A stretch of 38,783 bases of DNA. Origin: Phycisphaerales bacterium. GTDB lineage: Bacteria > Planctomycetota > Phycisphaerae > UBA1845. The position numbers and the translations under genes are program-made. Positions 33,901 through 38,783 of this stretch are shown piece after piece. Location: positions 1 to 38,783 of the forward strand of contig JABFSN010000203.1 of assembly GCA_013140575.1 (NCBI GenBank), read 5' to 3'. Under the pieces are notes generated by a model. That model worked only from the letters and a program-made list of their open reading frames with translations. It was not told where the DNA came from and did no database searches. The first letter of the stretch is position 1. Every line of letters starts with the position of its first letter.

Positions 33901-35149
33901 CAGTCCGCTGCGCGTCGGCCGATTCGGCTGGAAGGCCCAGGTCCCCACAATGCTGACCTTCTCCGGTGACGCCGCGCTCAACGAAATGGGTCTGACCAAC
34001 CGCCTCGTTCCGACGGAAAACGCGCCCAACGGCGACATGGGTTTGCTGGCCATTTGCGACACCATCCCCGATCCCGAGGACGGACCCGATGCCGAGGGGC
34101 TGCATTTCATCGACCGCGTGACCGATTTCCAGCGGCTCCTCGCCGCCCCGCCGCAGACGCCCAAGTCGGGCATGACCGGCGAAGCCGTATTCAACAGCAT
34201 CGGCTGCGCCGGCTGCCACGTTCCGTCGTTCATCACCGGCGTGGTGGCCGAATCCTCCCTATCCTCCAAAACCATCAAGCCCTATTCCGATTTCCTGCTG
34301 CACGACATGGGCCAGCTCGGCGACGGAATCGTGCAGGGCGACGCCGGCACCACCGAAATGCGCACCCCGCCGCTGTGGGGCGTACGCGCCCGCGACCCCG
34401 TGCTGCACGACGGCCGCGTCGCCGGCGGCTCGTTCGACGAACGCATCCGCGATGCCATCAGTTGGCACGACGCCCTGGGCGGCGAAGCCCAGCCGGCGGG
34501 CGCCGCGTTCGATGCCCTGCCCGAGGGCGACAAGTTGGCCGTCATCGCTTTTCTCGATTCGCTCGGCCGGGCCGAATTCGACCACGACGGCAACGACAGC
34601 GTGTTGCTGCCCGATTTCCTGGCCTTCCGCGGCTGTTTCGACGGCCCCGGCGGCTATTCGCCCGACGACGCCTGCGCCATTTCCGACATCGATCAGGACG
34701 GCGACGTGGACCTGACCGACGCGGCCATGTTCGTCGACGCCTGGGACGGCCCGCTGACCGATTGCAACAACAACGCCGCGGTCGACCTGCTGGACATTCT
34801 GACCGGATTCAGCCAGGATCTGGACAACAACGCCATTCCCGACAGTTGCACGCCGCCGTGTATCGATGCCGCGACCTGCGGCGACGGAAACGTCTGCACG
34901 GCCGATCTGTGCACCGGCGGCTTCTGCGACAACCCGCCCGCGCTCTACGGCGACGTCAACAACACCGGCGACGTGGACATTTTTGATATTCTGTGCGTCC
35001 TGGACGGCTTCGCCGGAAACTTCACCGACTGCGTCGCGTCGGCGGTGGACATCGCGCCCTGCACGCCCGACGGCCTGCATGACATTTTCGACATCCTGGC
35101 CGTCCTTGACGCCTTCTCCGGCACAGACACCTGCTGCGGCGGCCCCTAG
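30950..35149 (+). CDS. Secreted FG-GAP propeller / di-haem DUF1111 oxidoreductase / dockerin-like fusion
   Basis: 1399 residues. The start has AGGGAG 5 nt upstream. An N-terminal export segment is followed by FG-GAP/VCBS-type repeats with D-x-(D/N)-x-D loops (about 60-480). A beta-rich region (about 500-800), partly resembling the jelly-roll adhesion segment of immune-inhibitor-A-like proteins, and a short Cys-rich linker (about 785-830) come next. From about 850 to 1230 lies a DUF1111 di-haem oxidoreductase (MauG/cytochrome c peroxidase-like). Its haem sites are CAACH (877-881) and CAGCH (1086-1090), with family segments GWKAQVPT, NEMGLTN, LLHDMG and RTPPLWGVR ... LHDGR. Calcium-binding repeats and a 66-residue dockerin-like tail (1334-1399) end it. 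It probably performs redox chemistry outside the cytoplasm; the substrate is unknown. Confidence 0.92.
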   Translation: MLSGRIAFVSHVQSNRLLMLMSTVAAMSPFVRPESAAAGTGGAWVEFADETSTRLVVIPSLGVSDPDEKEYAWADIDKDGDIDLVCVRKEPWTSPGRRRNVLFMNEGVADGHAINGVLVDRTNQYATSADDGGQGFLDLTNDRDVALVDVNNDTWLDMVTATTISDGLPKTISHPRVYRNLGNNGNGDWLGFRYEQARIPQLLTIPGGSAVAPRFCSVAGKDLTGDGFADLYFGDYDSSGAGGDQEPSQIDLNDRLLINNGAGFFTDSAYTRMSQAMLVSAFSMAVAIEDMNGDGFVDIVKDTALNVPQRVSIAYNNPANQGFFDVFDSGVYTLAPYHTTVGDLNNDSRLDLVITDDGSDRYLLNTGNGAQNQALFSSRTFSFQTGGDDGFGGDSVIADLNKDGFKDVLITDVDIDISGCDRRLHIYRNLGNLPTVTLQEQLSGGTPEPWMPNGAHDVAVFDLNGDNWLDMVIGTCNGTEVWINQPPTDLQFAYPDGLPADIVPDQITQFDTVVSGTGSVPQPGTGRIFISVDGAPFTDSAMPQSAPNEYVAMLPAVPCTSTVRYYFSAETTDPITITDPRGAPLTTYFAVANVGSETVIDEKFEAPDPGWTVSDQNVLTGAWVRVDPVGSFFPDGSTTPAQPGDDFGAATDETMCWVTGQHSGGAAGLTDLDGGPTILTSPIIDVAGVDAIISYARWQYSSVGGASILDELITEITNNGGDWVRVDGVFNTGSAWNVHSFKISDYVPPTATVQVRFVASDQPNNSITESAIDNFTVTKLLCEFTCTIDGDCDDGLYCNGAESCVEGECLSAPPPCPQQFCDDVTDACSLILQPRMGDPLAGLTAGQLDRFNQGSTRFNQTLSIPNGLGPIFNQNSCAACHNGSGAGGAGSILVTRFGFADKNGFDPLASLGGSLLQSQAISGTCSEQVPVESNIAANRVTPSVFGDGLVESVDDADILAGESSPPPGITGAAHMVPALEDPPASPLRVGRFGWKAQVPTMLTFSGDAALNEMGLTNRLVPTENAPNGDMGLLAICDTIPDPEDGPDAEGLHFIDRVTDFQRLLAAPPQTPKSGMTGEAVFNSIGCAGCHVPSFITGVVAESSLSSKTIKPYSDFLLHDMGQLGDGIVQGDAGTTEMRTPPLWGVRARDPVLHDGRVAGGSFDERIRDAISWHDALGGEAQPAGAAFDALPEGDKLAVIAFLDSLGRAEFDHDGNDSVLLPDFLAFRGCFDGPGGYSPDDACAISDIDQDGDVDLTDAAMFVDAWDGPLTDCNNNAAVDLLDILTGFSQDLDNNAIPDSCTPPCIDAATCGDGNVCTADLCTGGFCDNPPALYGDVNNTGDVDIFDILCVLDGFAGNFTDCVASAVDIAPCTPDGLHDIFDILAVLDAFSGTDTCCGGP

Positions 35150-36234
35150 CGAACGATGCGCGGTGATTACCGCATGGAGTCGGGCGGGCTGTCATACTGA
35201 AACAACGGAGCGACCGGAGTTTCTGCCGTTCGAATATCACCGGCGAGATGCTCCGCTCGCCTTCCGTGGGCGTGCAATGGCAGCCGTCGAACGTGACCGC
35301 CCCCCTCCTTGCGGTGTCGAACGCCGTCGAGGGCGTAAACCCCAGCGCCCAATTGGCGGTTGCGTCGCCAAGTGGCGTCGTTTCGCCGTCTCGTCGCCGG
35401 GTAGCCACCGGGATCGAATTACAAGCCTCCCCCGATCCCTAATTCCCCGTTCAACCGCGCGCGTGCCATGCGGTCGCCGGAACGGATTATCGGTCGCTCG
35501 GCACTCGTTCGGCGGCGCGAACGCCGGCGCCCCGTCGGCGGGATTGTGTTCCGATTGTGTTTGCCGAGTGTGCGGCGATGGCGAATAACCCGCGCCGCAG
35601 TCGCGCCTGCCCCGCACGATCGTGTTCGCGGTCTCAATTGATACACGGCGCTTTATGGCGTCCGGTTTCCCAGCTATCAATGGTAATCGGCGTCGCCGGC
35701 GGGCTTTTCGCCCATTTCGGACCGCGTCGGTGGGGCGACCGCGGTCTGTTATTGGCCGGAGATCGCGCAGCGAACCCAAATGGGGGAGCCGCCACCTTGA
35801 TTTGGGGGTCTCTTTCGAGGATACTTGTGCGAAGGGTGTCGTGCCGGGATCGACGTGCGCGTCCGGCCGGGGAATAGCACGGCTGCCGCACGCGTCGGGG
35901 GAGCGGTGCGACGGCGTCGACCGGACCGTGGTCGTTCGGCGACGGCGTGGTGCGGGGAGAAAGAGGCAATTCGCCGCCTCGGCGAATAACACGGGGTGAA
36001 GCAGTTTCGCGGGCCATGGGAGCCGATGGCGACCCGGTCGTCGTTGCGCCGCATTGCCGCGTGCCGACCCCTTGTCGCGAGGAATGTGCGGTCGGCCGAT
36101 GCCGGCCGAAAATCCGGATATATGGATGAAGTGCGCCCGCGCGGGAAGCGCCGCGTGGTACCGCAGATGAATAAACGCCCCACGGGCGACTTGGACCACG
36201 GAATGATTTCCGTCAAGAAGGATGAAGGAAGACG
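35150..36234. other. 1.1-kb region without a convincing gene
   Basis: Open frames on both strands here are Arg/Pro/Ser-rich, lack plausible starts and show no domain or periodicity, so I call none. The region contains a candidate promoter (35797-35825) and a close direct repeat GATTGTGTT (about 35542 and 35553). A 6-bp hairpin (ACGGAA/TTCCGT) lies at 36198-36213, just before the next gene's ribosome-binding site. A long leader, a small RNA or a decayed gene are all possible. Confidence 0.5.
35797..35825 (+). promoter_or_regulatory. Candidate promoter TTGATT-17-GATACT inside the 1.1-kb gap
   Basis: Both hexamers match four of six consensus bases and the spacing is exactly 17 nt. If it serves the gene at 36235, the leader would be about 400 nt, unusually long. 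It might instead drive a small RNA. Confidence 0.33.
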
Positions 36235-38589
36235 ATGACCCAGAGAAAGAAGCAAATGACCGCGAATTGGCATCGGCCGTCGGGCGTGGCGTTCGCACGG
36301 TTCGGACGGGGATGGATGATGGTCGCGTGCATCGCGGCGGCCGTCGCCCCGGCATGGGCGGAAGTGTGCCTGCAGCCCAACACATTCAGCGGGGGGGCGT
36401 GCGTCACCGACGCGGAGTGCAGTCCGCCCGCTAGCCTGTGCAACATGGCGACCCACCTGTGCGTGCCGGTCTCGTGCGACGACAACGCCGACTGCGACCC
36501 GCCGGCGAGCGTGTGCAACCTCGAGACCCTGGTGTGCGAGGGGCGCGGCACGGTGCTTCTGCCGCCGTCGTGCTTCGGCGGTTACGTGGCCCCGGACGAT
36601 TTCATGCAAATCGATCTGCCCGGCTTCCCCGTGGGCATGGATTCCAGAATCGCGATCAACCCGGTCATTTCGAGCATCAGCGGCATTGTGCGTACGCCGG
36701 GCGGCGCCTTGGGCGGGGAAACGCAGGAGTTCTTCGCGGGGATGACGTTGAACCTGCAGGGCTATGGCGGGCTCTCCATCTTCAACCAGGACATGGTGTT
36801 CGGCGTGCAATGCAAGTTCGAAACATCGGCGGGAATCGAAGGCGCCGCGACCCAGCAATTAACCGCCCAGATCGACAGCATCACAGGCGAGGCATTCGGT
36901 TTCGATCCATTCTGGTCGATGTTCCGCATGACCATCGGGGGCGATCACGGTTTGCCCAGTCCGGGGCAGGTGCGGCTGGTGCACGATCCCATGACCGGAA
37001 ACTTCTACACCAGCAGTTTCTTCGACGTGAACTACCGGATCGAATACACGGGCGCCAACGCCCCCTTCAATCCCGTTCGAAACGTCACGGGTACGGCGAC
37101 GGGCGTGGTGCGCATGGTGATCGGGGCGGAACCGACCATGCTGGTCCGGCCGGTGCCGTTCTTCAACAAGCGCGAGGCGACGATCATGTCCGGCGAACCC
37201 CTGGTGCTGGAGACGTTCATTCGTGACACCAGCCCGCGCCTTCTGCGCGCTTACCAACAGACGTTGCTCAAGACGATTTCCGGAGGAACGAGCGGAAACA
37301 TCGTCTGGGATGGCACCAATCCGGTAATCAATCAGGCGCACGTGAACCCCGCCTGGGCGCTCAGCGGCGCTCCCGGTAGCATCTTTTCGGCCGTCTCCAC
37401 CGTCCTCGATCGGCTGACCGTCACCGCCGCCCTGCTGAACATTCCGGACGGGGTACAGGTCAATGGGCTTCGCTACGGAGGAACGTTCTTTTACGAAGCG
37501 ACGCCGAATGCGAGCGGCACGTTTCCGATCAACTTCTTAAGCCCCGGCGCCGGCCAGGGGTTCGCGACGACCCTCTCCCAGGCGGGCACCCCGACTGTGC
37601 CTATCCCCTTCAAGCCCTTCGGGGCCATCGTGCACGTCATCGCCACGCCGTGCGACAACGACGACGACTGCGAGGCGGGGCTGCACTGCAAGATCGCGAC
37701 CGGAATGTGCGTCGCGTGCACCAACAACGGTCACTGCACCGACAGCATGTTCTGCACCGGGACCGAGACCTGCGTCAACGACGTGTGCGTCGACGGCGCT
37801 GATCCGAACTGCAGCGACAGCGTGGCCTGCACCGTCGATTCCTGCAGCAACGCCCAGAGCATGTGCCTGCACGTGCCCAACGACGCTCTGTGCGGGGTCA
37901 ATCAGGTCTGCAACCTGACACTGGGCTGCGTGGCCTCCTGCACCGACGTCGTGCCGCCGTTCATCGTGCACAACGCCGGTCAACCGAACTCGACGCGGCC
38001 GTGCTCCGGCTACATCGACCCGCGGATCGAGAGCTCCAACGGTGTGGCGCTGGACCGCGGCACCAACAGCGTGGACATCCGCTTCAACGAGCCGGTGTTC
38101 AAGATCGGCGGCGGCGCCGTGGACTCCACCAGTTTCGTGGTCACCGAAACCGGCGGCGGAGCGCCCCCCGGCGTACTGTCCGTTGTGGCGCTGGACGCCA
38201 TGACCTTCCGCGTGACGTTGACGCGATTCATCACCCTGCGGCAGTGGACCACGGTGCGGGCGGTGGTTCAGGACGTTTGCGCCAACCCGATCGTGAACAC
38301 CGGACCGGGCGGCGTAGCCAACGAGCCGGACCGCGTGGACATGTCCCATCTGCCCGGCGATGTCAGTCAGAACAGTTCGACCCAACCGGCCGACCTGATC
38401 AATTTCCGGCAGGCGTTCGCGGGTGGATTCGCGGCCGCATGTCAGCCGACCACGAATTACTTCGACATTGACCGCAACAACACCGGGTTGCAGCCGAACG
38501 ACCTGATTCGGTTCCGTCAGATTGCCGCGGGTACGTCGCCCGCGACCACGGTTTGGCTGGGCAAGAACATCCTCTCGGCGCGACCGTAG
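36235..38589 (+). CDS. Cys-rich secreted protein with Ig-like domain and diverged dockerin-like tail
   Basis: 784 residues. AAGGA lies 5 nt upstream of the ATG. A signal peptide with basic N-region and hydrophobic core ends at AWA-E (about residue 42). Two short Cys modules follow (D-A/N-x-C-x-PPAS-x-CN type). Next is a large beta-rich domain I do not recognise (about 105-470), then another Cys-rich block (about 475-590). An Ig-like domain of the SbsA/Big type (RFNEPVF ... FRVTLTRF ... WTTVRAVV) spans about 615-695. The C-terminus has two dockerin-like repeats lacking many canonical Asp residues, GDVSQNSSTQPADLINFRQ and DIDRNNTGLQPNDLIRFRQ. A cell-surface or extracellular structural role is inferred. 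A strong terminator follows 30 nt after the stop. Confidence 0.88.
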   Translation: MTQRKKQMTANWHRPSGVAFARFGRGWMMVACIAAAVAPAWAEVCLQPNTFSGGACVTDAECSPPASLCNMATHLCVPVSCDDNADCDPPASVCNLETLVCEGRGTVLLPPSCFGGYVAPDDFMQIDLPGFPVGMDSRIAINPVISSISGIVRTPGGALGGETQEFFAGMTLNLQGYGGLSIFNQDMVFGVQCKFETSAGIEGAATQQLTAQIDSITGEAFGFDPFWSMFRMTIGGDHGLPSPGQVRLVHDPMTGNFYTSSFFDVNYRIEYTGANAPFNPVRNVTGTATGVVRMVIGAEPTMLVRPVPFFNKREATIMSGEPLVLETFIRDTSPRLLRAYQQTLLKTISGGTSGNIVWDGTNPVINQAHVNPAWALSGAPGSIFSAVSTVLDRLTVTAALLNIPDGVQVNGLRYGGTFFYEATPNASGTFPINFLSPGAGQGFATTLSQAGTPTVPIPFKPFGAIVHVIATPCDNDDDCEAGLHCKIATGMCVACTNNGHCTDSMFCTGTETCVNDVCVDGADPNCSDSVACTVDSCSNAQSMCLHVPNDALCGVNQVCNLTLGCVASCTDVVPPFIVHNAGQPNSTRPCSGYIDPRIESSNGVALDRGTNSVDIRFNEPVFKIGGGAVDSTSFVVTETGGGAPPGVLSVVALDAMTFRVTLTRFITLRQWTTVRAVVQDVCANPIVNTGPGGVANEPDRVDMSHLPGDVSQNSSTQPADLINFRQAFAGGFAAACQPTTNYFDIDRNNTGLQPNDLIRFRQIAAGTSPATTVWLGKNILSARP

Positions 38590-38619
38590 AGGATTAGGTT
38601 TCTGCGTGAAGTTGATTTC

Positions 38620-38655
38620 GCCCGCCGCTTCGCACCACGAGGCGGCGGGCTTTTT
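38620..38655 (+). terminator. Rho-independent terminator
   Basis: GCCCGCCGC (38620-38628) pairs perfectly with GCGGCGGGC (38642-38650) around a 13-nt loop, and TTTTT follows at 38651-38655. This is the clearest terminator in the window. It ends the secreted-protein gene and appears to be the target for the group II intron that begins at 38658. Confidence 0.9.
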
Positions 38656-38657
38656 GT

Positions 38658-38783
38658 GTGTGCCGAGCATGTTTGGCGGCTTGGGGGTGGAAGTCCCCTG
38701 TTCAACCTGATGGAGGTGAAGGACAAGCGACTGGCAAGGGCGTCACCGCGAGGTGAGGTCTGAAGGAAGCCATAGCGAAGATG
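38658..38783 (+). mobile_element. 5' end of a group IIC intron, truncated by window edge
   Basis: Beginning at GTGTGCC (38658) the sequence has the features of group II intron domain I, and by recall it closely resembles the class C intron of Oceanobacillus iheyensis. These are GTGTGCC-x-x-GCATG, a GGGG/CCCC hairpin enclosing GTGGAAGT, GCAAGGGCGTC, a TCACC-GCGA-GGTGA tetraloop hairpin (38743-38756) and TCTGAAGGAAGC (38759-38770). It lies in sense orientation 7 nt after a terminator hairpin, the known preferred target of class C introns. Only 126 nt are visible, so the reverse transcriptase, domains V-VI and the 3' end cannot be assessed. Confidence 0.82.

Follow-up and report, generated by a model that had tools for sequence, protein, structure and literature searches.

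A group II intron 5′ end behind a terminator hairpin

The window (the whole 38,783-nt stretch analysed, contig C193 in a 268-contig genome of a Phycisphaerales bacterium) ends shortly behind a gene and raises the question of whether its last nucleotides are the beginning of a group IIC intron that has taken a transcription terminator as its target, as a first-pass annotation had proposed from the letters alone. The upstream gene is a 784-aa open reading frame in the ORF list (36235-38589, plus strand), the stop codon of which lies 30 nt ahead of a hairpin at 38620-38650 (plus strand). This hairpin, with 13 pairs (11 G-C) and a 5-nt loop, is assigned as an intrinsic terminator from the terminator scan, the fold and the hairpin score, and is separated from the intron by a T-rich tail, TTTTTGT (38651-38657, plus strand). 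The terminus of the contig reads ...GCGGCGGGC TTTTTGT followed directly by GTGTGCCGAGCATG..., with the intron starting at the first letter of the latter. The annotated GTGTGCC start of the last 126 nt is seen at 38658-38783 (plus strand), a stretch that is assigned as the intron 5′ end and part of domain I from three identical contig ends and from helices that covary across 84 sequences (see below). The annotated hairpin and its TTTTTGT tail are likewise present, although the stem has 13 pairs and not 9.

The terminator scan of 35000-38783 is overall not above chance (four terminator-like sites versus 3.1 expected), and the stem at 38620-38650 is the longest that it returns. Without its two outermost pairs (fold of 38622-38660) the hairpin attains −22.4 kcal/mol (z −3.8), a value equalled by 0/200 shuffles, and its hairpin score is 35.5 against a shuffled mean of 15.2. 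The hairpin ends 7 nt ahead of the intron, which is inserted on the sense strand of the upstream gene; as the site is behind the terminator, the host gene is unbroken. Group II introns start with GUGYG, and the GTGTG at 38658, which is shared by three other copies in the genome, corresponds to such a 5′ end; the 5′ end of the window intron may also resemble that of the O. iheyensis IIC intron. Only 126 nt of the intron are seen because the contig ends at 38783. At gathering thresholds no Rfam match is found in the window, and at a relaxed threshold RF02001 (group-II-D1D4-3) matches 38742-38783 with 26.4 bits (gathering score 32), the match stopping at the contig end. The covariance-model search suggested as a check thus finds the window below threshold only, but reaches 106 bits in L043 and 126 bits in L054 among the relatives scanned; at E <= 0.05, RF02001 has no match in L046, L050, L052, L055 and L057, despite DNA being present behind their 5′ ends.

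Further copies of the intron in the same genome

The intron stretch of the window recurs at three further contig ends, on C28 (126 nt), C14 (124 nt) and C237 (119 nt), with 100% identity and E-values of 2e-60 to 6e-58. The four 5′ ends have four different flanks, each with a different GC-rich hairpin, and in 4/4 cases a stem of 12-14 pairs is positioned 5-7 nt before the intron; none of 20 shuffles is as good at any of the four sites when 60 nt upstream are searched. The proposal that a terminator stem-loop is the target is therefore upheld at every 5′ end of the intron found in this genome.

At five other contig ends (C8, C159, C47, C112 and C165) a domain V is found (RF00029, 38.5 bits, just under the gathering score of 40), and these contigs share a 3′ boundary, ...CCTATGTCGAT, beyond which five different flanks begin. 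Their common 3′ terminus, ...GACAGGGACAGCCCGCGAGGGCTTACCTATGTCGAT, contains a domain VI with a bulged A, as read by eye, and ends in ...GAT. C165 extends 106 nt further and codes for ...GPWRISRSPALSYAMPDAFLRELGLPLLSVR-stop, the last 47 residues of the intron reverse transcriptase (RT), which can be aligned to the C-terminal ends of RTs from relatives (L128 being the closest, at 67% over 45 aa), and the other four 3′ ends start with the last 11 RT codons, in which one residue differs from C165. The RT, domain V and 3′ end that had been expected past the contig end are therefore present on other contigs (for the RT, no more than the final 47 codons) and in relatives, but not in the window.

Given five 3′ contig ends with different flanks, at least five copies of the intron are likely to be present in the genome. 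The 119-126 nt shared at 8/9 contig ends are what an assembler that halts at a repeat would produce, and at least five near-identical copies would have interrupted the assembly wherever the intron begins or ends, so that its body is missing from the bin. The body, including EBS1, is absent from the window and from all contigs found for the genome, and no 5′ end could be paired with its own 3′ end. The near-identity of the copies suggests recent movement. A PF00078 profile search of the genome yields no RT of the window intron; its only matches are on C161 and, below threshold, on C172. The former (L017; G000 C161:33584-35533), considered as a candidate for the intron body, is a different group II intron (Rfam D1-D4-6, 110.5 bits) with a 482-aa open frame that includes an RT and with a domain V of 34.2 bits; the match on C172 is likewise not the window intron.

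Relatives in other genomes and the intron reverse transcriptase

Similar 5′ DNA is found in 9/51 and similar 3′ DNA in 8/51 genomes of the family, the window's own genome included in both counts. With the 19-mer at 38703-38721 as the search pattern, at least 117 loci are retrieved in named genomes, and a GTGTGCC-type 5′ end is found ∼45 nt upstream of the 19-mer in 106/117 loci among the matches listed, the other 11 having been dropped for lack of a recognisable 5′ end (<=4 mismatches allowed). The hosts among 80 matches listed are mainly Acidobacteriota, Planctomycetota and Proteobacteria, including Alphaproteobacteria. As Planctomycetota or Phycisphaerae account for 15/80 of these matches, a planctomycete host, which is upheld for the window intron, is not unusual.

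A complete relative of ∼1.88 kb, in which both kinds of end are joined, is found in Planctomycetota RA.bin114 (L124). It is identical to the ends of the window's genome at 101/125 positions at the 5′ end and at 69/72 positions in D5-D6, its domain V starts 1803 nt behind the intron start, and it encodes a full-length RT of 458 aa (424.6 bits to TIGR04416). The TIGR04416 cut-off is passed by 6/6 RTs tested, i.e. five of the 22 RTs found in relatives, and P0002, the RT of L054. Compared with solved structures, the L128 RT, the sole one so compared, is closest to the GsI-IIC RT (6ar1; E 4e-146, 490 bits), with LtrA at 2e-41 and 145 bits, and on this similarity would fall in the class C clade; the GsI-IIC match spans residues 60-470 of 471 and thus leaves no room for an endonuclease domain. 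When a complete near copy was sought in the 51 family genomes, only L054 (G015) among seven loci compared was found to have an RT, but in its 5′ part L054 is a distant relative. From the last 47 residues on C165 and from these relatives, an intact RT for the window intron may be inferred.

The relatives also include reduced forms. Five loci (L090, L094, L104, L109 and L140) appear to be ORF-less IIC introns with a domain V string 508-585 nt past the 5′ end and no RT homology. Five others (L043, L046, L052, L055 and L057) are 5′ pieces of ∼40 to 250 nt without an RT or a recognised domain V, i.e. 3′-truncated remnants, which is the opposite of the product expected from incomplete target-primed cDNA synthesis. 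In L107, the first ∼64 nt of the intron are joined almost directly to the RT C-terminus, as in an internal deletion.

The window copy might accordingly be read as a decayed 5′ remnant, the 3′ part of which has been deleted. Such remnants are known among the relatives: where the contig continues for 2600 nt or more past the 5′ end (36 loci), 18 are without RT homology, and 12 of those are without the domain V string (a crude search that also misses some loci that have an RT), and genomes of the family contain 5′ pieces of ∼40 to 250 nt without an RT. A remnant would, however, be expected to run into unique DNA, whereas all four 5′ contigs end inside an identical stretch, as expected of a collapsed multi-copy repeat, and five 3′ ends accompany the four 5′ ends in this genome; we thus regard a remnant as improbable. 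More improbable still is an ORF-less intron, a ribozyme of ∼0.6 kb that depends for its movement on an RT encoded at another locus. The five ORF-less introns among the relatives provide a precedent for it, yet C165 joins domain V to 47 codons of the intron RT C-terminus, and the other four 3′ ends begin with the last 11 RT codons, with one residue different. We consider it very probable that a mobile group IIC intron has inserted 7 nt past the terminator hairpin that follows the upstream gene, its first 126 nt being those seen in the window.

Covariation in domain I

Domain I was aligned across 84 sequences, the window and 83 distinct loci from those listed, after 23/106 had been dropped as too short, as containing N, as lacking the GAAGC/GAAGT landmark or as duplicates. 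Three helical elements are obtained on the plus strand. The first is a hairpin of the GGGGG/TCCCCT type at 38683-38699 with paired changes, in which pair 38685-38697 is GC in 38 sequences, AT in 41, GT in 4 and other in 1. The second is a hairpin at 38700-38724 around the 19-mer CAACCTGATGGAGGTGAAG (38703-38721), the outer pairs of which (38700-38724 to 38702-38722) change on both sides; the inner pairs are unable to vary, as the 19-mer was the search pattern and is therefore invariant. The third is a helix at 38732-38772 that encloses a hairpin with a GCGA loop (38743-38756), the region in which the Rfam D1-D4-3 match (38742-38783) starts. Up to 13/84 sequences are without a standard pair in this inner hairpin, the range per pair over the whole prediction being 0-13 of 84, and no pairs are predicted for the first 25 nt. 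The domain I helices covary across the 84 sequences, with the structure having been predicted from the same alignment as the covariation count, which is hence biased towards agreement. The annotation as a class C intron is supported by these helices, by the recurring 5′ ends and domain V/VI in the genome, and by the RT of the relatives.

Hairpin and IBS1-EBS1 recognition of the target

At 104 sites of relatives, the top-scoring hairpin within 60 nt ahead of the intron averages 25.4, compared with 14.0 for shuffled sequence and 14.1 for 100 control stretches 140-200 nt upstream (two of the 106 loci were dropped for <60 nt of 5′ flank, and the 104 are not deduplicated, L135 and L190 sharing a flank). 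All 20 shuffles are beaten at 72/104 sites and at least one shuffle is as good in 32/104; the hairpin ends 3-9 nt ahead of the intron in 76/104, and in 16/104 the best hairpin is >12 nt away or weak.

A 10-nt EBS1 loop is readable in 49/106 loci among those listed, the other 57 having been dropped for want of a readable, non-duplicate loop. Bases 4-7 of this loop are Watson-Crick complementary to exon positions -1 to -4 in 45, 45, 41 and 21 of the 49, compared with shuffle means of 21.0, 25.6, 14.7 and 10.5 and shuffle maxima of 28, 32, 25 and 19; related introns are counted separately among the 49, so that these are not independent events, and the offset had been spotted by eye on these very loci ahead of testing. 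No pairing excess is observed at exon positions -5 to -7 in the 49 relatives, and the four other loop offsets tested as controls give no signal. As the excess is limited to -1 to -4, IBS1 would extend over ∼4 nt and correspond at the window site to TTGT (38654-38657), the last four nucleotides of the tail; the pairing seen in relatives thus argues against the six-nucleotide IBS1 annotated at 38652-38657 (TTTTGT).

The four sites in the window's genome have TTGT (window), TCAC, GCAT and TCAT as IBS1. A single EBS1 of GUGA would form 15/16 pairs with them (10 Watson-Crick) and one of AUGA 14/16 (12 Watson-Crick), and a fit at least this good is reached in 57/2000 random draws of four sites among the 106 loci. 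There is thus modest support for an EBS1 predicted near (G/A)UGA. By analogy with known IIC introns, the intron RNA and an RT that lacks an endonuclease would recognise the terminator stem-loop as single-stranded DNA, the short IBS1 (∼4 nt) would pair with EBS1 in a domain I loop, and the intron RNA would reverse-splice into the DNA and then be copied.

With only 126 nt in the window and Rfam silent at gathering thresholds, another dispersed repeat (an insertion sequence or a palindromic repeat) or an assembly chimera might have been suspected. Domain I covariation, EBS1-IBS1 pairing, and domain V/VI together with an RT in relatives that share the 5′ motif argue against these possibilities, as do four different flanks with a strong hairpin in each, and we consider them extremely improbable.

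Other kinds of site are observed among the relatives. Seven introns (L079, L119, L144, L164, L167, L173 and L176; the first three in Alphaproteobacteria) are located behind short GCGG-type hairpins that end in TTCGTT and have no T run, with AACG as EBS1 in 6/7 and AACA in L164. In a Mesorhizobium genome with copies of a related intron, the motif CCGC-loop-GCGGYTTCGTT occurs six times (reversed control 0), with the intron in 2/6, which is too few to regard it as a repeat target. In G043, related introns on C483, C4 and C11 (L061, L062 and L051) follow a hairpin and ...CAGC or ...TAGC, and a 3′ end (L069) is followed by the hairpin CCAGGGCAACGCCCTGG, both as read by eye.

A related intron in REP-like palindromes

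In another genome of the same family (G004), the 5′ ends found for a related intron are in 9/9 cases located in copies of a two-part palindrome, the first part of which reads CAGCCTGAAAGGCTG...GTAG and the second CCGTGGGC...GCCCACGG. The pattern occurs 29 times in G004 (L196-L224, e.g. L197, L204, L212, L223; reversed control 2); in nine copies the intron is inserted at precisely the position behind GTAG, and the other 20 have no intron there. A strict form of this REP-like repeat is present in 7 of the 51 genomes of the family, against 0 for the reversed control. Three 3′ ends in G004, which are taken to belong to the same intron (the halves being joined by no contig), are followed by a hairpin, and in L074 the 3′ end is followed by CCGTGGGCAAGCGCAGCGCCGCCCACGG, as in uninterrupted copies of the repeat. 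One of five 3′ matches in G004, on C82, proved on reading to be another intron type.

REP elements are known to stand beside RAYT genes. In G003, a REP-like copy is present on C99 (L233), ∼130 nt ahead of a Y1_Tnp (RAYT-like) gene; among the Y1-transposase loci L231-L234, the repeat was found at L233 only, with none at L231 (G004), L232 and L234. When a complete intron behind GTAG, as in G004, was sought in a draw of 392 genomes from the planctomycete phylum that did not contain G004, one candidate match was obtained (G199).

We think it somewhat more probable than the contrary that IIC introns of one planctomycete family have switched the kind of hairpin that they use, with terminators used in the window's genome and REP-like elements, which have a GTAG foot and companion palindromes, used in G004, where the element is split exactly between GTAG and its hairpin. 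The intron body and EBS1 of G004 lie outside the assembled contigs, and the switch is read from the 5′ ends and putative 3′ ends.

Relation to known group IIC introns and implications

In the parts of the sources available, class C introns such as B.h.I1, GsI-IIC and others are described behind intrinsic terminators (Robart et al. 2007, as cited in PMC4424553 and PMC7161350), and a genome survey places bacterial-C introns mostly immediately behind terminators (PMC8919778). The window intron resembles them in its GTGTG 5′ end, compact domain I, domain V/VI and short IBS1, in its position a few nucleotides behind a terminator stem-loop, and in the RT of a relative that is closest to the GsI-IIC RT. 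It matches the known group IIC frame in every tested point; nothing differs in kind, and what is new is the host lineage and the four target sites. The class C-attC introns (S.ma.I2), as far as the available part of PMC4424553 describes them, likewise have a hairpin target, whereas that of the window intron is a terminator. In Pseudomonas putida KT2440, 2/9 group II intron copies are in REP sequences according to the accessible text of PMC1525189; the G004 intron is similarly placed in REP-like elements, but with 9/9 of the 5′ ends found at an exact position behind GTAG, whereas the window intron is at terminators. Judged by titles and abstract openings, none of the papers found on group IIC introns, terminators, REPs and Planctomycetes is about a planctomycete IIC target.

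The genome of the window contributes a planctomycete intron in several copies, together with four terminator targets that are new and an EBS1 prediction that can be tested, and the comparison set (106 5′ ends and 49 EBS1 loops, among the matches listed) indicates that only ∼4 exon bases are set by pairing. The REP-targeting relative would provide a natural experiment on the choice of stem-loop by class C introns: if the switch is real, these introns would, through a changed 4-nt EBS1 and the use of another kind of stem-loop, have gained in REP repeats one more type of safe harbour.
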